IMG/VR virus record: IMGVR_UViG_3300031566_000220
Span: 1-33,050 of that record
DNA: 33,050 bases
Source of the DNA: a virus
Strand: one strand, 5' to 3'
In this document: piece after piece, positions 22,650 through 32,651 of the stretch
How positions within the stretch are numbered: the stretch's first letter is position 1
Layout of the letters: every line of letters starts with the position of its first letter
Made by a program: the position numbers and the translations under genes
Notes under the pieces: generated by a model
Seen by the model: only the letters and a program-made list of their open reading frames with translations
What the model was told of the DNA's origin: nothing
Database searches by the model: none

Positions 22650-23335
22650 CCAATACAAGCCCGATCACGCTTGATCAGCTTTTTCGCAACAACCGCAACC
22701 TGCCCCACCAACTAGCAGCCATTGCTGAGTTGGAGCATGACATCCGGTCAAATGATTATGACGTTGCAATGCGTCGTGATCGCCCATGGTTTAAGACATG
22801 GAGCCAAGCGGGCAAGCAATCAAACCCGCTGCCCGTGCCATACCAGTCGCAGCGGGACAACTACCGCGATGCAAACCGCACCTGCTTTAGCTCCAGTTGC
22901 GCCATGCTGCTGATGACCCTGAAACCAGGCGCCATCCATTCGGATGATGACTACATCAAGACCGTTTTTAGCATTGGCGACACGACTGAGGCATCAGTGC
23001 AATTGAAGGCACTGGCCAAATACGGCATCAAAGCCCGCTTTGAGACTGGCGGCAACCGCGCCCTAATCAAGCGGCAAATTGATGCCGGCAAACCCGTACC
23101 GGCTGGTTTCTTGCATCATGGTTCGGTGTCGGCGCCCACAGGTGGTGGCCATTACCTTTGCATCATCGGTTATGACGCCACTGGTTACTGGGTCAATGAT
23201 CCATGGGGTGAAATGAACTTAACCGCTGGCACCTATGGCAGCACCGTAGGATCCAAACTCCATTACAGCTACGCAAACTGGGAGCCGCGTTGGATGGTAG
23301 ATGGCCCCAGCACCGGGTGGTGTGTGATCGCATGA
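22646..23335 (+). CDS. C39-like cysteine peptidase, probable endolysin
   Basis: A 229-residue protein of the papain-like C39 peptidase group. The catalytic Cys is probably Cys80 in NRTCFSSSCAMLLM (Cys-x6-Met spacing as in C39 families), the His is His169 in PTGGGHYLCIIGYD, and Asn184/Asp185 in VNDPWG complete the triad. The motif VPYQSQRDN upstream of the Cys is also typical. Closely similar proteins recur in cyanophages and are often proposed as endolysins because no muramidase or amidase is otherwise present; the substrate is not proven. It overlaps the holin-like gene by four bases, consistent with a holin-endolysin pair. It could instead be a virion peptidase. Confidence 0.75.
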   Translation: MTNTSPITLDQLFRNNRNLPHQLAAIAELEHDIRSNDYDVAMRRDRPWFKTWSQAGKQSNPLPVPYQSQRDNYRDANRTCFSSSCAMLLMTLKPGAIHSDDDYIKTVFSIGDTTEASVQLKALAKYGIKARFETGGNRALIKRQIDAGKPVPAGFLHHGSVSAPTGGGHYLCIIGYDATGYWVNDPWGEMNLTAGTYGSTVGSKLHYSYANWEPRWMVDGPSTGWCVIA

Positions 23336-23853
23336 TCCTGCCCGACTACGAAATCCATGAGCTATGCAGCAAGCATGCCATGGTGGTGCCGTTTGATCCT
23401 GAGCTGCTCAACCCGGCCAGCCTCGACGTGCTGCTGGGTGACCGGTTGATGCTCGAGGTCATGTATCGGCATGAGCTGGAGATCTTCGACATTTCCCACA
23501 ACACCAAGTCCAATCCGTACTGGCTGGCGCCGGGTGAGTTCTGCCTGGCAGAGACCCGAGAGATCTTCAACATGCGCCCCGATGTGGCAGGTCAGTTCGT
23601 GCTCAAGTCCAGCCGTGCTCGCGAGGGCCTAAGCCACGCGCTAGCCGGCTACCTAGATCCAAGCTGGTGCGGTAGCCGCCTGACGCTGGAACTCCACAAC
23701 TTGCGTCGGCATCATTCGATTGCGCTGTGGCCAGGTTTGCGCATTGGCCAGGTGGTCTATCACCGTATAGCAGGAACCCCGCAGCGCAACTACGCCGAAA
23801 TTGGCCACTACAACAACCAGCCGCAAGTCATGCCTAGCTGGGAGGCAGCGTAA
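23332..23853 (+). CDS. dcd: dCTP deaminase
   Basis: The ATG at 23332 overlaps the peptidase stop (ATGA) and gives 173 residues; an in-frame start at 23290 would run back into that gene. It converts dCTP to dUTP for the thymidylate supply. The fold-defining motifs are present: NPASLDVLLG (residues 27-36), LKSSRAREGL (91-100), GYLDPSWCG (106-114) and LTLELHN with Glu120, the likely catalytic acid, then ALWPGLRIGQ ending at Gln140. The Ser-Ser-Arg-Ala-Arg and Asp-Pro-x-x-x-Gly patterns favour deaminase over dUTPase. Its location after lysis rather than with replication genes is unusual but seen in compact phages. Confidence 0.9.
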   Translation: MILPDYEIHELCSKHAMVVPFDPELLNPASLDVLLGDRLMLEVMYRHELEIFDISHNTKSNPYWLAPGEFCLAETREIFNMRPDVAGQFVLKSSRAREGLSHALAGYLDPSWCGSRLTLELHNLRRHHSIALWPGLRIGQVVYHRIAGTPQRNYAEIGHYNNQPQVMPSWEAA

Positions 23854-24059: not shown

Positions 24060-24290
24060 ATGAGAGCGTATCTGGTGGAAATTACCGCGAAAGTGGTGAT
24101 TCGATCTGAAACGGATCCAGACGTGCTTTGCGACAACCTGTACGCACAGATCACTGAATTCATCCACAATGATGATGATCTGTTGAATATTGAAGTCGAA
24201 CTGCTCCCCTTGCCAGCGGATTGCAATGGATCACCAGATCGACGGGACGAACCTAATTCCGAGGAAGGAAGCGAAGCTCCGGTTTCGTGA
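24060..24290 (+). CDS. Small beta-alpha protein (76 residues)
   Basis: Starting at the ATG at 24060 the product begins MRAYLVEITAKVVIRSETDP and continues CDNLYAQITEFIHND. The strand-turn-helix pattern recurs in short phage proteins of unknown role. An earlier in-frame ATG at 24009 would add a hydrophobic stretch (VWWVVVVTIGAAAFA) that looks like a membrane segment and would make its start codon overlap the start of the opposite-strand gene; I prefer the shorter form. The last ~25 residues are acidic and probably disordered. It overlaps the HNH gene by 65 bases. Confidence 0.5.
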   Translation: MRAYLVEITAKVVIRSETDPDVLCDNLYAQITEFIHNDDDLLNIEVELLPLPADCNGSPDRRDEPNSEEGSEAPVS

Positions 24291-24534
24291 TCAAATCCAC
24301 CTTGCGTGGGACTGGAAGTGCGCTTATTGTTGCGCAGAACTTGGTAGATCGGCAACGCTGGATCATATCATCCCAAAGGTTAAGGGTGGGCTAACTGTAC
24401 GTTCAAATTTGATTAGTTGTTGCCTAGCTTGCAATAGTCATAAGCAACATACAGATTGGAAAGATTGGTATCAAGATCAAAACTTTTACTCCGCAATACG
24501 AGAAGAAGCAATTACAGCATGGACCAATCAGTAG
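24226..24534 (+). CDS. HNH endonuclease
   Basis: From the ATG at 24226 the product has 102 residues; a TTG at 24190 would add 12. It has the zinc-binding CAYC pair, the catalytic LDHIIPKVKGG motif (His of the beta-beta-alpha metal fold) and NLISCCLACNSHK with the second Cys pair and the final HNH residues. Such free-standing HNH enzymes in phages act either as homing-like nucleases or as helpers of terminase cleavage; here it is far from the terminase, which favours a homing-like or host-DNA-cutting role. It overlaps the preceding gene, and the convergent minus gene by seven bases. The AT-rich composition differs from the late genes, consistent with separate acquisition. Confidence 0.85.
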   Translation: MDHQIDGTNLIPRKEAKLRFRDQIHLAWDWKCAYCCAELGRSATLDHIIPKVKGGLTVRSNLISCCLACNSHKQHTDWKDWYQDQNFYSAIREEAITAWTNQ

Positions 24535-24704
24535 TAGTTAACATAAATTTCGGCTTGCCATAGATCAACTGTATAGCGGCAAATAGCACCATTATGGCCG
24601 CATGCTCTATACAATGGCATCCCGTCATCGCCCTCAACCACATCAATCCAGCGTGTTTCACCGCGCTCAAGGCGGTCCAGCGTCTTCCGTTCCATCGTCT
24701 TCAT
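24528..24704 (-). CDS. Uncharacterised small protein (58 residues), last gene of minus operon
   Basis: Starts at the ATG at 24704, with AGGA about 11 bases upstream, and overlaps the preceding gene by 38 bases. The product is MKTMERKTLDRLERGETRWI, then DVVEGDDGMPLYRACGHNGA and a hydrophobic, aromatic end. CGHNGAIC has two cysteines and a His that could bind metal, but the set is too small to be sure. An in-frame start at 24773 would lengthen it by 23 residues inside the neighbour. Function unknown. Confidence 0.5.
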   Translation of the reverse strand: MKTMERKTLDRLERGETRWIDVVEGDDGMPLYRACGHNGAICRYTVDLWQAEIYVNYY

Positions 24705-25026
24705 ACAGTGAGCATTTCCTAGCGTAGCGACCCTTGTTGGTTTGCGCCTCAGGAAAACCAAGGCTACATGCATCAGATCTTGGTGTCCAGTGAATGCAAG
24801 ACCAGCACTTAGGTTTGCCTTGATATGATCCCCAGATTTCTTCTACTGATTTACCGCTGTACAATGCCAAATAATTGTATTGAGCGCAAATAAACGCTGC
24901 CGTTAAATCTGATGTGCCAAGGTCAACCGTAACCGGATCACAATGGGGCAGCTTAATTCTTGCAGTCCAATTTTCTGCTAAAGAATTACGCTGGATAATT
25001 ACACGACCATTGTATAGGTTAATCAT
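24667..25026 (-). CDS. Four-cysteine protein of unknown function (119 residues)
   Basis: The ATG at 25026 overlaps the upstream stop by eight bases. The N-terminal half reads as a small beta domain (VIIQRNSLAENWTARIKLP). The second half has a four-cysteine set: CWSCIHW, DACSLGFPEA and a final KCSLY, spaced Cys-x2-Cys-x10-Cys and a fourth about 19 residues later. Small phage proteins with C--C-W-----C-LGFPEA are recurrent in my memory and likely bind zinc or iron. The DNA here is AT-rich. Role unknown; metal binding is inferred. Confidence 0.55.
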   Translation of the reverse strand: MINLYNGRVIIQRNSLAENWTARIKLPHCDPVTVDLGTSDLTAAFICAQYNYLALYSGKSVEEIWGSYQGKPKCWSCIHWTPRSDACSLGFPEAQTNKGRYARKCSLYEDDGTEDAGPP

Positions 25027-25252
25027 CTTTTCTACCAAATGAAGGCGCGTGATATAAACGCTCAAGTTGCAGTGATGCTGGCTCTGTATTGTCCGTTTCC
25101 CAGATGCCAGCATTGGTAGGGTCATCCCTATCCTTGACGCCATAAACCGCCGTGGTGCCATGTTGCTTTACATGCACCATGCTGATGCGGGGGCTGCTAA
25201 TCAAAAAACGAATTGCAGCATTTTCAAGCCAGGACAGGAATGGAGCGTTCAT
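25019..25252 (-). CDS. Uncharacterised protein (77 residues)
   Basis: Starts at an ATG overlapping the upstream stop by four bases (ATGA). The product opens MNAPFLSWLENAAIRFLISS, an amphipathic helix, then has KQHGTTAVYGVKDRDDPTNA and a basic end. I do not recognise a family. Its tight coupling to neighbours and coding-like amino acid composition are the only support. Confidence 0.5.
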   Translation of the reverse strand: MNAPFLSWLENAAIRFLISSPRISMVHVKQHGTTAVYGVKDRDDPTNAGIWETDNTEPASLQLERLYHAPSFGRKDD

Positions 25253-25476
25253 GGTTCAAGATGAGTGATAAGACGGTTGATGTACCATTGAGCTTTGCGT
25301 GCATCCTCGAGTGGAGCACCCTTTAGCCACACTCTAAGCAGATACTTAAGGGCTTGACCTTGAAGGTAGCCGCAAACAATATCAGAAGGAGCACTGGAAA
25401 TTGCATCTTCAATAACATCAATTGCTTCAAATTTTCCACTCGTATAATGTGGAGGATGATTTACAAGATCATTCAT
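25249..25476 (-). CDS. DUF3310 family protein
   Basis: From the ATG at 25476 the product is 75 residues: NDLVNHPPHYTSGKFEAIDV, then IVCGYLQGQALKYLLRVWLK and DARKAQWYINRLI. NHPPHY near the start and the G---G-ALKYLLR core with a closing Trp/Tyr helix define DUF3310, a small phage domain sometimes described as a nucleotide kinase of unknown specificity. An in-frame ATG at 25482 is an equally possible start. The gene overlaps its upstream neighbour by eight bases and its downstream one by four. Found here with a dCTP deaminase and an NrdR-like zinc ribbon, it may act in nucleotide metabolism; that link is inference. Confidence 0.82.
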   Translation of the reverse strand: MNDLVNHPPHYTSGKFEAIDVIEDAISSAPSDIVCGYLQGQALKYLLRVWLKGAPLEDARKAQWYINRLITHLEP

Positions 25477-25702
25477 CTTCATCACCATAAAAAAGCAATA
25501 CCGGAACACGCAGTGTTGGCTTGCCACCAAAGCCAGACCTTAGCTTTTCCCATCCAACAGCCCATGAAGCAACTTCAAGTTCAATTGTAAACCACTTGTG
25601 TTTACAATCTTTGCATTCGCGCTGACGTGTTGTATGATTGGGCTTCATAGTATTTGATTGCAAAACAAATACTGAATCATGATCGCATTTAGGGCAATTC
25701 AT
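25469..25702 (-). CDS. NrdR-like zinc ribbon protein lacking the ATP-cone
   Basis: A 77-residue protein starting MNCPKCDHDSVFVLQS and continuing TTRQRECKDCKHKWFTIE. The Cys-x2-Cys ... R-REC-x2-C--(R/K)(F/W)FT-E pattern is that of the N-terminal zinc ribbon of NrdR, the repressor of ribonucleotide reductase genes, but NrdR's ATP-cone (about 90 residues) is missing and the end is unrelated (LRVPVLLFYGDEDE). It could act as a DNA-binding decoy of the host NrdR or as an unrelated zinc-ribbon adaptor. Starts at the ATG at 25702, overlapping the upstream stop by four bases. Confidence 0.68.
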   Translation of the reverse strand: MNCPKCDHDSVFVLQSNTMKPNHTTRQRECKDCKHKWFTIELEVASWAVGWEKLRSGFGGKPTLRVPVLLFYGDEDE

Positions 25703-25986
25703 ATAATGGTTTTGGTTTGGTAGTTAGGGTCTTCAGGATCAGGGCCAAACCCACTGGCCTCTGCTGCGGGTGCCTCGAGTGGCGCTGCGATGGTGTCCGT
25801 GAGCCATTCCCGCAGCGCATCACCCGTAGGTGTCTTGCGAGGCCAGCCAATGAAGCGCAGCATCTCTTTGGTGTCGGTGAACAGCATCGAGACGTGGGGC
25901 TTCCAGGCCATGTAGCTGGTGCCATTCCAGCGGTCATGGCGGCGCTCGATGCGCAGCCCGCCGGCGGTGAAGGTGTCAGCGACCAT
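25699..25986 (-). CDS. Uncharacterised protein (95 residues)
   Basis: Starts at the ATG at 25986, overlapping the RlpA-like stop (TGATG). The product starts VADTFTAGGLRIERRHDRWN and has a central MLFTDTKEMLRFIGWPRKTP, then TGDALREWLTDTI and an acidic, Pro-rich tail. I do not recognise the family. The longer frame upstream of this ATG is a shadow of the RlpA-like gene. A mixed alpha-beta fold is likely. Confidence 0.55.
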   Translation of the reverse strand: MVADTFTAGGLRIERRHDRWNGTSYMAWKPHVSMLFTDTKEMLRFIGWPRKTPTGDALREWLTDTIAAPLEAPAAEASGFGPDPEDPNYQTKTII

Positions 25987-26300
25987 CAGTAAGAAATCCC
26001 AACTTTTGCTACCCCATCCAGCGGTACGCGTAAGCGATACGCAGCACCTGCTGACAGGTCGATCGAGTTGCAGTCGCAACGGTCGGTGATCGGCACCACC
26101 AAGCTGCGGCCCTGGTGGGTGACGCGGACACGGGTGCCGCACGGGATCCATGGATGCGCCGCGCTGATGCCCCAGTGCTGGTAGGTGCCACCGCAGGCGT
26201 CGGCCCTGTTGTGATACCAGCCGTCGTAGACCGTGGCGGTGACAGTGCGGGCCTGGGCTGGTGCCGCAAGCATCGCCAGCAGCAGTAGGAAGCGCCTCAT
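25986..26300 (-). CDS. RlpA-like secreted double-psi beta-barrel protein
   Basis: From the ATG at 26300 (ATGA overlap with the upstream stop) the product has 104 residues. It starts with a clear signal peptide: MRRFLLLLAMLAAPAQA, with cleavage expected after AQA. The mature part is a small double-psi beta barrel: TATVYDGWYHNRADACGGTY, ISAAHPWIPCGTRVRVTH, then VVPITDRCDCNSIDLSAGAA and RVPLDGVAKVGISY. The ITDRC--IDLS--A motif holds the Asp that RlpA lytic transglycosylases use, and the cysteines could form disulfides outside the cytoplasm. RlpA cuts peptidoglycan lacking stem peptides. Here it is in an accessory operon on the opposite strand to the lysis cassette, which is odd. It may be a wall hydrolase, an inhibitor-binding scaffold or an entry-related factor. 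A 106-residue form from a GTG at 26306 is less likely. Confidence 0.8.
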   Translation of the reverse strand: MRRFLLLLAMLAAPAQARTVTATVYDGWYHNRADACGGTYQHWGISAAHPWIPCGTRVRVTHQGRSLVVPITDRCDCNSIDLSAGAAYRLRVPLDGVAKVGISY

Positions 26301-26584
26301 GCCCACTTCCCCAGCAGGTAACGGCGGCAGATAGCAATTGCTTGCTGCGCCTGCTTCTGCGTCATCACGGAATTGGTTTCATCCATGGCTTGGCACACGT
26401 CAGCATGGAGCTGCGCGTAGTCGGCATCCCTGAAGTTGGGGCCGATGTCGGCGCAGAACTCCTGCCATAGACCGGTGTAGGTGGAGCGCAACGGGTCACC
26501 CTTGGGCAAGTCAGCGCGACCGCTTTTGGCATATAACGCTTCCATCATGGTGGTGCGTTGCAGGTCAAGTTGATGGGGTTTCAT
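26297..26584 (-). CDS. Uncharacterised helical protein (95 residues)
   Basis: ATG at 26584, overlapping the upstream gene by 20 bases. The protein is charged and mostly helical: DLQRTTMMEALYAKSGRADL, GLWQEFCADIGPNFRDAD, then AMDETNSVMTQKQAQQAI and a basic end. No family recognised. Tight coupling to the RlpA-like gene downstream is the strongest clue to co-expression. Confidence 0.55.
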   Translation of the reverse strand: MKPHQLDLQRTTMMEALYAKSGRADLPKGDPLRSTYTGLWQEFCADIGPNFRDADYAQLHADVCQAMDETNSVMTQKQAQQAIAICRRYLLGKWA

Positions 26585-26762
26585 TTTCTTTTAGGTGAAA
26601 CAACAGATTGCGGCATTCCTGCCATGCCACTGAATTGTGGTGTAGCTCATCCATTCGCACTTTAAGAAGCGTCTTGATGTGCCGCCGTTCATCTTGGCAA
26701 CCTTGTTCATAAAGACTGTTACTACTGATTAAATCAGCAATGCGTTCACGCAATGGCTTCAT
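26565..26762 (-). CDS. Uncharacterised small helical protein (65 residues)
   Basis: ATG at 26762, in an ATGA overlap with the upstream gene. It starts MKPLRERIADLISSNSLYEQ and continues GCQDERRHIKTLLKVRMDEL; the whole chain looks like two charged helices. No family recognised. Position within an unbroken overlap chain supports it as real. Confidence 0.5.
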   Translation of the reverse strand: MKPLRERIADLISSNSLYEQGCQDERRHIKTLLKVRMDELHHNSVAWQECRNLLFHLKENETPST

Positions 26763-27049
26763 CGCGTTTCAATTACCTTGGAGGACAGGTAAAGTTGAGA
26801 AAGCATAAAGCAATCACCTGCTACATTGTGGCAGATGTAATGCGGCCAGGTTTGACCTTCAGCTCTGCTTTTAATGTACAGAACATCTTTAGATGACCAG
26901 TTACGAACATAAACTTTTTGACCAAGGTTGAATCTCCACAGGGGCGCAATGCGTTGGCCGCCGCGATTATTTCGAGTCATGTTGTATGTGCTCCAACTGG
27001 TTGAAACAATTGGAACAACATAATTGCTTGGCAGGACAGTTGCTTGCAT
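26759..27049 (-). CDS. Uncharacterised protein (96 residues), first gene of minus operon
   Basis: Starts at the ATG at 27049; an alternative at 26980 would give 73 residues beginning TRNNRGGQRIAPLWRFNLGQ. It then has KVYVRNWSSKDVLYIKSRAE and a closing LYLSSKVIETR, suggesting a small beta barrel (SH3-like), as in GQKVYV--W---- motifs. Function unknown. It is the promoter-proximal gene of the ten-gene chain; I see no convincing promoter in the 80 bases upstream. Confidence 0.5.
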   Translation of the reverse strand: MQATVLPSNYVVPIVSTSWSTYNMTRNNRGGQRIAPLWRFNLGQKVYVRNWSSKDVLYIKSRAEGQTWPHYICHNVAGDCFMLSQLYLSSKVIETR

Positions 27050-27131
27050 GTGTTTCAGTGGTGCCCTGGTTTGGGCATGAACCTAAGGTAGTACACCGCC
27101 AGTGCGGCCCAATGGGTTTGTTGCAAAGGTT

Positions 27132-27167
27132 TACAAAAGAAAACCCGTGTCAGTTTCCTGCACGGGT
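27132..27167 (-). terminator. Rho-independent terminator of the recombination operon
   Basis: Read on the - strand: ACCCGTG (27167-27161) pairs with CACGGGT (27149-27143) around an 11-base loop, followed by TTTTCTTTT (27143-27135). It lies 15 bases after the SSB-like stop at 27182. It separates the RecE/RecT operon from the small-gene operon downstream. Confidence 0.85.
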
Positions 27168-27181
27168 CCTACCATCACCAA

Positions 27182-28378: not shown

Positions 28379-29226
28379 CAGTACATCTCAATTTCAGGTG
28401 GCTGGCCCATGGTCGTGCCATCAGCCTTAGGCCGCATCCATGCCGGTAGGTTGATCAGCTCCACTTGGTCGCTGTAACCAGGCCATGCATCCGCTGCCAT
28501 GCATTCAGCAAGGCGGTTTAGGTTTGCTCGAGCAGTGTCCCAACCGATCTTTACCATTTCTGGTGCTGCAACGTAAACAGCACATGCGAACGGAGGGCGC
28601 TTTTCGACGCACAAAAATACGAATTGCTCAGGCCGTTTGCCTGTTGCTTGTTCAACACCATGCAAATACCATGCAGCCTGGACGTGGTAACGCCATTTTG
28701 CAATCGATTGCATAAAATCTGCAGGACTGGCACTTTCCGTTGTTTTAACGTCAACAATGGTGCTGCCATCATCCAACAGATAATCAGGTCGGCACTTGCA
28801 CTCGAGGCCAGTCTCCGCATCCGTCCAGAACAGACTGGATTCAGCCTTGCCCGGCAAGCCAAGCAAACTACTGGCAGCAGGATGCTTGAAGACACCCTCG
28901 GTGATCTTGCCAACTAGGTCGGCATCCTCACGGCTGATCACGGTGCGGGTGCCCGCAGCCGTCGTGAACACATCCCATTCAGCCTTTCCTGCATTGGTGC
29001 GCCGGTTGATGCCAGCAGGTGTCACCGCGTAGGTGGCATCCCACTTATCAATCTCCAACACACTGGTATGCACGGCTGATCCGATCACCATGGCCGGCGT
29101 TGGTGCTTCCGCTGGCCAGCGGTTGGGATCCAGATGCTTGGCCCAATAATGCAAGGGGCTGCGTGCGATCGAATCCAAGCGGCTCTTAGAAACCGCCGGG
29201 TGGCGGTGGTAGCTTTCGTTGTCCAT
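28378..29226 (-). CDS. RecE-like PD-(D/E)XK exonuclease
   Basis: A 282-residue nuclease that would resect 5' ends to feed RecT. The N-terminal VSKSRLDSIARSPLHYWAKH and GSAVHTSVLE (His53, Glu57) are family hallmarks; RPDYLLDDG and STIVDVKTT supply Asp148, Asp159 and Lys161 of the PD-(D/E)XK site, and YHVQAAWYLHG supplies the later Gln/Tyr motif (Gln183, Tyr187). These match the catalytic end of RecE (exonuclease VIII). No RecE N-terminal extension exists, as in other phages. It is first in the operon, reading away from the SF2 helicase across a 54-base gap. Confidence 0.88.
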   Translation of the reverse strand: MDNESYHRHPAVSKSRLDSIARSPLHYWAKHLDPNRWPAEAPTPAMVIGSAVHTSVLEIDKWDATYAVTPAGINRRTNAGKAEWDVFTTAAGTRTVISREDADLVGKITEGVFKHPAASSLLGLPGKAESSLFWTDAETGLECKCRPDYLLDDGSTIVDVKTTESASPADFMQSIAKWRYHVQAAWYLHGVEQATGKRPEQFVFLCVEKRPPFACAVYVAAPEMVKIGWDTARANLNRLAECMAADAWPGYSDQVELINLPAWMRPKADGTTMGQPPEIEMY

Positions 29227-29280
29227 AGCATTGCGTTGGGCTCGCGCATCCTATACCATTGGCGCTCCTACTGCAACCCT
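29227..29280. promoter_or_regulatory. Divergent start region for the recombination and helicase operons
   Basis: Fifty-four bases separate the - strand nuclease start from the + strand helicase start. On the - strand TTGCAG and TATAGG lie 15 bases apart; on the + strand TTGCGT and TATACC lie 15 bases apart. Spacers are short and neither start has a ribosome binding site, so these are weak promoter candidates sharing the same AT pocket. Confidence 0.4.
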
Positions 29281-30633
29281 ATGCAACTGCGGCCCTATCA
29301 GGAGGCAGCCGTCGCTGACCTTCGCCGCGCCTACGCCGCCGGTCATCGCGCTCCACTCCTTGTCATGCCGACCGGTGCAGGCAAGACACAGGTTTTTACC
29401 TTCATCACCGCTGCCATGGCGCAGCGCAACCTGTCGGTCACCATCCTTGTTCACCGCCGTGAGCTGATCGCCCAGGCATCACGCAAGCTCACCCAAGCAG
29501 GCGTGGACCACGGCATCATTGCTGCTGGCACACCTGCGACATTTGCACCAATTCAGGTCGCATCGGTGCAAACGCTCATCCGTCGCCTCGAGGACACCCC
29601 AGCCCCAGATTTGCTAATCATCGATGAAGCGCACCACGCCGCCGCCGGCTCCTGGAACCGCATCCTCGAGCACTGGCCCGACGCCCTCCGTCTTGGTGTC
29701 ACCGCAACCCCAGCACGCCTTGATGGCCGTGGCCTGCGCGATAACTTCGACGGTATCGTCCATGGTCCAACCGTTGCTGATCTCACAGCAGCCGGTTACC
29801 TAGCCCCATTCAAGCTCTACGCGCCTCCGCAGGTGGCTGATCTATCCGACATCCCAACCCGCGCTGGTGATTTCGCCTCTGATGCCACCGCCGCAGCAAT
29901 GGACAAACCATCCATCACTGGTGATGCCATCGACCACTACCGCCGCATCTGCCATGGTGCGCCAGCTATTGCTTTTTGCTGCACCACCGCTCATGCCGAA
30001 AACGTCGCCGCACAATTCCGCACCGCTGGCTTCTCATCTCAAGCCATCCTTGGCACCACCCCTATCGCGCAGCGTGATCAGCAGCTCAAAGACCTTGCCT
30101 CCGGCGCCATCCAAGTGCTCACATCCGTGGACGTGATCTCCGAAGGCACTGACGTTCCAGCCGTCACAGCCGCCATCCTCTTGCGACCAACAGCCAGCCT
30201 TGGCCTCTACCTGCAGCAGATTGGTCGCATCCTTCGCCCTGCCCCGGACAAAGCCAACGCGATCGTCCTTGATCACGTCGGCAACGTCCACCGCCATGGT
30301 TGGCCGGACGATGTCCGTACATGGTCCCTCGACAGCAAACCCCGCCGTCAGCGCGACAATGCCCCCGCGCCAACAGTACGCACATGTCCCGTCTGCTTTG
30401 CTGCTTTCAAGCCCCAGCCAACCTGCCCATGCTGTGGTGCACCATCGGAACTCACCCAACGCGAAATCCAGCAACGAGACGGTGAACTCCAAGAACTCGA
30501 GCGCCGCACCCAACGTCGCCAGCAAGGCACAGCCCGTAGCCTGAAAGAATTGATACACATCGGTCAGCAACGTGGTATGCAAAATCCAATCGGCTGGGCG
30601 AAACACGTCTTCTACGCTCGCGGGTTGAAATAA
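29281..30633 (+). CDS. SF2 DEAH-box helicase with C-terminal zinc ribbon
   Basis: The ATG at 29281 (MQLRPYQEAAV) gives 450 residues; an open frame extends back to 29134 but runs across the opposite-strand gene. Motif Q-like RPYQ, Walker A MPTGAGKTQ (29-37), Walker B/DEAH IIDEAHHAA (113-121), TATPARLDG (motif III), and the second RecA-like domain ending QQIGRILRPA (motif VI) are all present. Near the C terminus CPVC and CPCC, nine residues apart, make a zinc ribbon (RTCPVCFAAFKPQPTCPCCG). It resembles phage and UvsW/RadD-type helicases that remodel forks or recombination intermediates. It is followed at once by a VRR-NUC gene. The start has no ribosome binding site. Confidence 0.92.
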   Translation: MQLRPYQEAAVADLRRAYAAGHRAPLLVMPTGAGKTQVFTFITAAMAQRNLSVTILVHRRELIAQASRKLTQAGVDHGIIAAGTPATFAPIQVASVQTLIRRLEDTPAPDLLIIDEAHHAAAGSWNRILEHWPDALRLGVTATPARLDGRGLRDNFDGIVHGPTVADLTAAGYLAPFKLYAPPQVADLSDIPTRAGDFASDATAAAMDKPSITGDAIDHYRRICHGAPAIAFCCTTAHAENVAAQFRTAGFSSQAILGTTPIAQRDQQLKDLASGAIQVLTSVDVISEGTDVPAVTAAILLRPTASLGLYLQQIGRILRPAPDKANAIVLDHVGNVHRHGWPDDVRTWSLDSKPRRQRDNAPAPTVRTCPVCFAAFKPQPTCPCCGAPSELTQREIQQRDGELQELERRTQRRQQGTARSLKELIHIGQQRGMQNPIGWAKHVFYARGLK

Positions 30634-31038: not shown

Positions 31039-31242
31039 ATGACTTCCGACGAACAGCTCAAAGACTTCTACTGCCTTCACCTAGGCCACGCACAGCGTCC
31101 CAACATCGAGACAGCACGCCACTTCGCTGAATTTATCCACCTCTTCACCAACCACTGCATCCACTACCGCGCATGGACACGCGAACGCGCTGATGCCGTC
31201 ATCGCTGATGCTCGCGCCTTACTTCAACCATTGCAAAAATAA
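31039..31242 (+). CDS. Uncharacterised small protein (67 residues)
   Basis: From the ATG at 31039 the product is MTSDEQLKDFYCLHLGHAQR, then ETARHFAEFIHLFTNHCIHY and RADAVIADARALL. It is helical with many His residues but I recognise no family. Upstream in-frame ATGs (30961, 30928) exist but read through part of the nuclease gene. The end overlaps the convergent SF1 helicase by 19 bases. Confidence 0.5.
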   Translation: MTSDEQLKDFYCLHLGHAQRPNIETARHFAEFIHLFTNHCIHYRAWTRERADAVIADARALLQPLQK

Positions 31243-32651
31243 AGACCTTTTTTTGCCCGTGTAGTGGCAACGTATAGCAGGGCATTGCTGTAGTCAGCCC
31301 TGCATTCTTGCACATCTTTGTGAATAAAAACATAATCAAAAGTGCTGCCTTGTGATTTGTGCACAGTCATGACATTGGCGGAATAAATTACTGGAAAATA
31401 TGAATTGACTTGCATCATTGCGTGCCAAGCTTCGTGTGTTCCATTAATTATTCCGGCTTCTTGCATTTGATTAAGACGTTTTCTTAGCGCCATCCTATAA
31501 GCCTGTTGCTCGCTATCGTCAAGCAATGGGGCAAATACTGTAATTCTTGAACGCCAACGCTCAAGCTCAATTGTGATTTCTTGGAATTGCCCATCTATAC
31601 CTATGTCAATTGTTCTTTCAAGTTGCTTTGCTGGAGTTACATAGTCAAAGCTTAAAAAAGTTTTTTTAATGTCAATAATTTTTGACTCAATGACTGTAGC
31701 GTCTGAACAGGAATAGATTTTTTCATTGTTTGGCGCAACGGTGTATTTGGGAAATGTTATCTTTTCACCAGGCATCCAACCTTTGCGCGAATCCATGCCA
31801 TACAACGAAAACCTTAAAGCATCGGTCAAGGCTTTACAATTGTCATTTTTATGAGTCAATGCTCTGGCTTTCAAGCCATGTTGCTTGACGTGTTGAAAAA
31901 AGTTTTGCATCCATACGGCCTCCGAATCAATTACTTGAATAAAAGACTCGGAATCTCGTTGGGATGTTTTTGGAAAATAATGACGGTTGGTCCAGTTTGA
32001 TCGAATGAACGTAGCGTACTCAAGCACTGGACCGCCATGACGCAACACTTTTGTTAATTTACAACTCAAACCATCCGTCAATACAAACTGCTTGCACATG
32101 TTTTTAGAATAAACAACTTCTTCTGATTCATCAGACTGATCTTTGTTGTTCTCGATGGGAGGGAGCTGATATGGATCACCACTGAAAAAAAGCATTACAT
32201 TGTCGCACAGCGATACAATTTGTTGCATAATGTCAGCGTCTTCTTGAGAGACCATTGAAGACTCGTCTACAACCACAAGTCTTAACGGGCCATTGCGTTT
32301 TAATTCGTCAGCTTTTTTGTGCAGCACTTGAACAGAAGGTTTTTCAAACTCGACTTTATCTTTATTTTGTTTTGTGCTAACACCAATCATTTTTGCAATA
32401 GTAATAACCTTTACACCTTTTGGCATCTGCTCACGCAAAACACCAGCCGCTTTATGAGTTGGTGTCACAAAGATAACTGATTGACTACCAAGAAACCTTG
32501 CGGTTTCTTTCGCAAGATGCTGGAGTGTAGTTGTTTTTCCGCATCCAGCAGGGCCTAAAAGTGAGCCAATGGAATCTTCGCGTGTTTCAATGTTTGCAAG
32601 AATTTGATCGATGACAAGCTTTTGCTCTAAGGTGAGCGCAGTGGTCTTCAT
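31224..32651 (-). CDS. SF1 helicase of the Dda/RecD type
   Basis: A 475-residue protein with Walker A GPAGCGKTTT (33-42), motif Ia VTPTHKAAG, Walker B LVVVDESSMVS (Asp129, Glu130), GDPYQLPPI (motif III), and at the C-terminal end VMTVHKSQGSTFDYVF and YVATTRAKKGLY (motifs V-VI). This is the Dda/RecD-like SF1B group that moves 5' to 3' and restarts replication or displaces proteins. Compared with T4 Dda (439 residues) it is slightly long. The gene is on the opposite strand to its neighbours and is very AT-rich: bases 31621-31680 have 16 G/C (27%), while 30721-30780 have 44 (73%). That supports recent transfer. A hairpin (32658-32674) sits just upstream of its ATG. Confidence 0.9.
   Translation of the reverse strand: MKTTALTLEQKLVIDQILANIETREDSIGSLLGPAGCGKTTTLQHLAKETARFLGSQSVIFVTPTHKAAGVLREQMPKGVKVITIAKMIGVSTKQNKDKVEFEKPSVQVLHKKADELKRNGPLRLVVVDESSMVSQEDADIMQQIVSLCDNVMLFFSGDPYQLPPIENNKDQSDESEEVVYSKNMCKQFVLTDGLSCKLTKVLRHGGPVLEYATFIRSNWTNRHYFPKTSQRDSESFIQVIDSEAVWMQNFFQHVKQHGLKARALTHKNDNCKALTDALRFSLYGMDSRKGWMPGEKITFPKYTVAPNNEKIYSCSDATVIESKIIDIKKTFLSFDYVTPAKQLERTIDIGIDGQFQEITIELERWRSRITVFAPLLDDSEQQAYRMALRKRLNQMQEAGIINGTHEAWHAMMQVNSYFPVIYSANVMTVHKSQGSTFDYVFIHKDVQECRADYSNALLYVATTRAKKGLYFCNG

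Follow-up and report, generated by a model that had tools for sequence, protein, structure and literature searches.

What holds together ten small overlapping genes that stand beside the recombination genes of a virus? The window studied here is the whole of the 33,050-base virus record IMGVR_UViG_3300031566_000220 (positions 1 to 33,050), which by its sequence appears to come from a siphophage that counts the Synechococcus phages S-CBS3 and S-LBS1 among its relatives. The genes in question, g1 to g10, are minus-strand open reading frames (ORFs) that run without a gap from 27049 to 24528, and a preliminary description of the DNA had proposed them as a candidate for an undescribed system. The best explanation overall, which we consider probable, is a mosaic accessory operon of the lambda ninR kind, located by the recombination genes, made up of a core and exchangeable cargo and tied to nucleotide supply and DNA transactions.

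The ten genes form a single overlapping chain, which is very probably one transcription unit. With start codons backed by homologues, successive genes from g1 to g10 overlap by 4, 20, 4, 1, 4, 8, 4, 8 and 38 nucleotides (nt), the third overlap becoming 10 nt instead of 4 if g4 begins at an upstream GTG. Comparison of each ORF with 6-10 close relatives indicated purifying selection on every one of them, as the ratio of nonsynonymous to synonymous substitutions (dN/dS) was 0.05-0.27 nearly throughout with a single maximum of 0.33, and because of these low values all ten behave as protein-coding genes. Thus the gapless chain of ten genes of 58-119 residues with overlaps of 1-38 bases, as it was first read from the letters, was borne out, and the start of g1 at 27049 also proved right, since its first 23 residues are conserved, partly also in distant homologues. 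Overlaps are found in related loci as well: the one between g2 and g3 measures 4 nt in 110 of 144 loci, the one between g7 and g8 is 4 or 1 nt long in 126 of 136, and the one between g8 and g9 measures 4 nt in 121 of 137. The chain as a whole consists of overlapping protein-coding genes in a conserved order; an HNH gene convergent with it closes it downstream, and in the window's clade a terminator bounds it upstream.

The genes for a PD-(D/E)XK nuclease (DUF3799), a RecT-like protein, an HTH_17 protein (Pfam) and a protein of 118 amino acids (aa) lie upstream on the same strand. The last of these is called SSB-like (single-stranded DNA-binding) by its position and appearance only, because it matches no Pfam family. 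The intrinsic terminator between this gene and g1 (-15.8 kcal/mol on the minus strand) was missed by an automatic terminator scan and found by aligning the gap among relatives, and it is kept in the aligned close relatives. Most other relatives have an opposite-strand ORF in this gap instead (63 of 73 loci), and their zinc-ribbon gene begins 200-250 nt past the SSB-like gene. As the gap is filled by either a terminator or an opposite-strand gene, the DNA suggests that the unit and the recombination genes have separate transcripts. A palindrome that abuts the terminator, inside the gap 27050-27181, is operator-like and may serve as an operator. At the other end, HNH was found in 122 of the 128 loci bearing g10, always on the opposite strand. 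The opposite-strand ORFs of the gap include a recurrent family of about 61-71 aa that ends in ...QQEMLQAAVHEIARLE... (for example L037:7194-7409 and L060:1279-1506). Rfam searches gave no result.

Related loci were collected from IMG/VR with RecT (the best 80 of 461 kept) and with g9 (the best 80 kept of the at least 521 stretches that hold g9 relatives). The main counts come from 49 RecT-ascertained loci covering the SSB-like gene through HNH. A larger set of 85 spanning loci is skewed towards g9 by the g9 query, a skew of which the 49 loci are free; it was reduced to 55 once near-identical SSB-like genes were collapsed, and the pattern of presence was the same. Both sets (49 and 85) consist of best matches only. 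Among the 49 loci, g2, g3, g7, g8 and g9 are present in all, g10 in 48 and g6 in 47, in contrast to g4 (15), g5 (6) and g1 (4), and the six near-universal genes (g2, g3 and g7-g10) hold their order. The segment consists of this six-gene core, a zinc ribbon (g6) that is located elsewhere than in the window's chain in most relatives, and three optional genes (g1, g4 and g5).

This distribution decides on the idea that the chain is one dedicated ten-component system. The unbroken overlaps would agree with it, as would the window's own clade, where nearly all ten genes co-occur. However, the co-occurrence does not extend to the relatives at large, most of which are without g1, g4 and g5; g4 and g6 shift position among them, and S-CBS3 retains only g2, g3, g5 and g10. 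We give a single ten-component system almost no chance, and the full ten-gene version is refuted by presence and absence, while a sub-module such as g7-g10 or g8-g9 may still act as one system. What stands of the proposed undescribed system is a real chain of mostly undescribed families beside the replication and recombination region, but the unity of the ten genes does not.

The mosaic character is seen best between g3 and g7. This interval, filled in the window by g4, g5 and g6, is variable among the loci and elsewhere carries ThyX (L026) or dCTP deaminase (L025), and in L042 a helicase-methylase lies immediately ahead of g2. Nucleotide-metabolism and DNA-modification genes are thus carried as cargo inside the segment in relatives. 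The position of g4 is after g3 in the window's clade and before g2 in L032, L050 and others. In S-CBS3, gp25-gp28 are homologues of g10, g5, g3 and g2 in the same order, and they are likewise on the opposite strand from the structural genes and end against a convergent HNH gene. In contrast to the window, S-CBS3 is without g1, g4, g6, g7, g8 and g9, and a sigma-factor gene precedes its segment. As the nearest isolates are Synechococcus siphophages, the host is likely to be picocyanobacterial.

Pfam families above cut-off were found for g4, g6 and g7 only (PF03330 at 60.6 bits, PF22811 at 38.3 and PF11753 at 57, with cut-offs of 28.8, 27.2 and 24), and the 12 aligned members of g7 all match DUF3310 (12/12). 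The RlpA-like protein, the NrdR-like zinc ribbon and the DUF3310 protein named in the preliminary description were thereby confirmed. The six genes that it had left without a recognisable family, and the four-cysteine g9, have no Pfam match above cut-off, and from the profile searches that it proposed only g5 gained an assignment besides, to a PHROG family of unknown function. DUF3310 has been tied to the T7 nucleotide kinase gp1.7 (PMC10700055). The zinc ribbon of g6 resembles the N-terminus of NrdR, but g6 has only 77 aa and is not a full-length NrdR: the equivalog model TIGR00244 (147 positions) scored 27.4 bits against a cut-off of 124.65, and only positions 1-43 were matched. Judged from DUF3310, from the zinc ribbon and from the cargo, the theme that the genes of the segment most probably share is nucleotide supply and DNA transactions.

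In lambda, the nin region is delayed early, deletable and has been described as "a chain of interlinked genes" (PMC10695390). Phages are thus known to arrange small dispensable genes in overlapping chains next to their replication genes. The likeness lies in small interlinked genes beside replication genes, and the window does have such an overlapping chain. However, no sequence relation was found, the chain ends at the convergent HNH gene and not at a late regulator, and the window's relatives share a near-universal six-gene core; a timing and dispensability like those of nin would hold by analogy. The near-universal core may be of greater importance to this phage than nin is to lambda, although S-CBS3 is naturally without g7-g9.

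Several observations weigh against an accessory operon with this theme. The theme is carried by the smaller part of the genes, as g2, g3, g8, g9 and g10 are without known function or structural match, and the near-universal core is steadier than expected of freely dispensable accessory genes. A sigma-70 promoter scan gave no excess over shuffled sequence. Furthermore, while the DUF3310 match of g7 is far over the cut-off and places it with T7 gp1.7 and SaV, g7 is a lone DUF3310 domain of 75 aa, and a kinase role would be by analogy.

If the segment is nevertheless an accessory operon, a promoter of its own within the gap 27050-27134 would drive it early or midway through infection, and the stop-start overlaps would couple translation. 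Its products would mostly shift nucleotide supply and DNA transactions towards phage replication, with g7 acting as a protein of the gp1.7/SaV type and the zinc ribbon g6 and g9 as small proteins that bind nucleic acids or modulate transcription. g1, g5 and the putatively exported g4 may be passengers with separate jobs.

Table 1. Genes of the chain and the elements at its boundaries.
Feature	Position	Strand	Basis or remark
g1, 96 aa, family without known function	26759..27049	-	ORF; dN/dS 0.08-0.33; optional gene
g2, 65 aa, core gene	26565..26762	-	dN/dS 0.07-0.20; S-CBS3 homologue; alignment A4
g3, 95 aa, core gene	26297..26584	-	dN/dS 0.07-0.23; homologue S-CBS3 gp27; alignment A9
g4, 104 aa, putatively exported double-psi beta-barrel (RlpA-like), optional	25986..26300	-	Pfam DPBB_1; alternative GTG start 26306
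g5, 95 aa, phrog_37139 of unknown function, optional	25699..25986	-	PHROG E 3.8e-24
g6, 77 aa, NrdR-type zinc ribbon without rest of NrdR	25469..25702	-	Pfam Zn_ribbon_NrdR
g7, 75 aa, DUF3310 (T7 gp1.7 / SaV family), core gene	25249..25476	-	Pfam DUF3310
g8, 77 aa, core gene, undescribed family	25019..25252	-	alignment A8; conserved C-terminal tail EPxSMQLERLYHxPSYGExE
g9, 119 aa, core gene, undescribed family	24667..25026	-	alignment A7; predicted model
g10, 58 aa, core gene	24528..24704	-	alignment A6; homologue S-CBS3 gp25
Intrinsic terminator between SSB-like gene and g1	27135..27167	-	hairpin ACCCGTGCAG-GNRA-CTGACACGGGT then TTTTCTTTT; aligned close relatives
Operator-like palindrome TTGTAAA-NN-TTTACAA	27121..27136		conserved in close relatives; one mismatch in window
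Convergent HNH endonuclease gene, downstream end of unit	24190..24534	+	Pfam HNH

DUF3310 also leads to a different reading, in which the chain is a host-takeover or anti-defence island of early-made inhibitors of host functions and immune systems, with g7, g8 and g9 as inhibitors. The link to takeover-type genes drawn in the preliminary description is supported for one member, since g7 comes from a family with toxic, early-expressed phage proteins: a cytotoxic DUF3310 protein is located in the early lytic region of a mycobacteriophage and is toxic when overexpressed (PMC10700055), and the family includes the lactococcal-phage protein SaV, which is early, toxic and involved in AbiV sensitivity (PMC8306868). 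The conserved short tail of g8 is a possible binding motif, and some DUF3310 relatives are weakly similar to the Thoeris inhibitor Tad4. However, the Tad4 model PF25186 needs 25 bits, whereas the best of these relatives reached 19 bits (E 0.0018) and the window's long ORF 12.9, so g7 is not identified as Tad4; a literature search on Tad4 gave no result. Comparison of the ten genes with the PADLOC models, which cover mainly defence proteins, gave none beyond chance. Arms-race genes tend to be patchy in distribution, and a near-universal core is unusual for them. Taken together, we regard a takeover or anti-defence island as rather unlikely.

The families of g8 and g9 are undescribed. No relative of either was found among the 50,697 phage records that were searched, and neither fold searches (g9 in PDB and BFVD, g8 in PDB) nor PDB profile searches with g3, g7, g8 and g9 gave a significant match; PADLOC and NCBIfam searches of the genes without a family gave no result, and searches of bacterial genome contigs with g3 and g9 yielded no confirmed relative. 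The predicted model of g8 is weak, with a predicted local distance difference test (pLDDT) of 73 and a predicted template-modelling score (pTM) of 0.42. In g9, the N-terminal sheet and helix are better modelled (block pLDDT about 72-90) than the C-terminal module, which has four invariant cysteines (A7) and came out poorly in the model. The order of strands followed by a helix led us to consider an AP2/arm-type DNA-binding domain for the N-terminal part, which remains a guess as no significant fold match was obtained.

Of the 141 loci that carry the four-cysteine module of g9, 30 have it again in another gene of the operon, where it follows an HTH-like (helix-turn-helix) N-terminus (for example L020:8090-8383, L021:3247-3540 and L131:2778-3068). 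The isolate S-LBS1 (MG271909, 24607-24861) also has the module behind such an N-terminus. This N-terminus has a weak similarity to Sigma70_r4. Due to the recurrence in relatives and in S-LBS1, the sequences suggest that the module is portable and nucleic-acid-related, and it may bind zinc. Of the undescribed system proposed at first, g8 and g9 are what remains as a candidate. A bolder version, which we find improbable, would make g7-g8-g9-g10 a takeover or counter-defence module, so far undescribed and near-universal in a large lineage of uncultured cyanophages, with g8 (tail motif) and g9 (zinc module) paired on a host nucleic-acid or transcription target.

The chain could also serve particles or lysis, with g4 acting on peptidoglycan. 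g4 is putatively exported, and its sequence can be aligned with the RlpA-type protein PA4485, whose AAH and DR residues it shares, as well as with a phage hub protein. Thus it shares the double-psi beta-barrel fold (DPBB) with the RlpA lytic transglycosylases by sequence, but it does not belong to the RlpA family proper (TIGR00413 at 39.6 bits, cut-off 82.15) and has four conserved cysteines, and any such activity would be by analogy. In addition, the terminase, the head- and tail-type ORFs and a C39-type peptidase (22646) form a separate block on the plus strand, whereas the chain is on the minus strand after the recombination genes. No structural-family match was found among the ten genes beyond a hit of g10 at chance level, and a virion or lysis role for the chain is very unlikely.

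The accessory operon remains our preferred explanation, and its other members can be described briefly. g1 looks SH3-like or beta-rich and has a weak match in cyanophage KBS-S-2A. g3 has weak matches in the phage records of cyanophages S-H1, KBS-S-2A and S-EIVl, and g5 has 52% identity to its S-CBS3 homologue and further matches in uncultured MedDCM phages; clear cultured-phage relatives of g3, g5 and g10 were found in S-CBS3 only. Two length forms of g3, SGRTC-TYTGLW and SGRxxLPxGHPLRxTYTGLW, both occur across several different clades (A9).

Around the chain, a dCTP deaminase gene (23290-23853, plus strand) adjoins the HNH gene. The record also holds two helicase-type genes, one of the ResIII/DEAD type (29134-30633) followed by a VRR-NUC gene and the other of the AAA_30/UvrD_C_2 type (31224-32651). 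In one relative (L067:5165-11593) two recombination cassettes stand in tandem: behind the first set comes another with its own DUF3799-type nuclease, a RecT-like protein (247 aa) that differs from the first, an HTH protein and an SSB-like gene.

With these results, what was a series of hypothetical genes becomes a conserved unit whose core, optional genes and boundaries are defined. The analysis also singles out the families of g8 and g9, which are absent from the searched phage records and yet, in the case of g9, present in at least 521 environmental viral stretches. If the core is truly a takeover or anti-defence set, it would be a tool widespread among aquatic phages that probably infect cyanobacteria. 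In case the core is metabolic, it would add to how these phages supply nucleotides.

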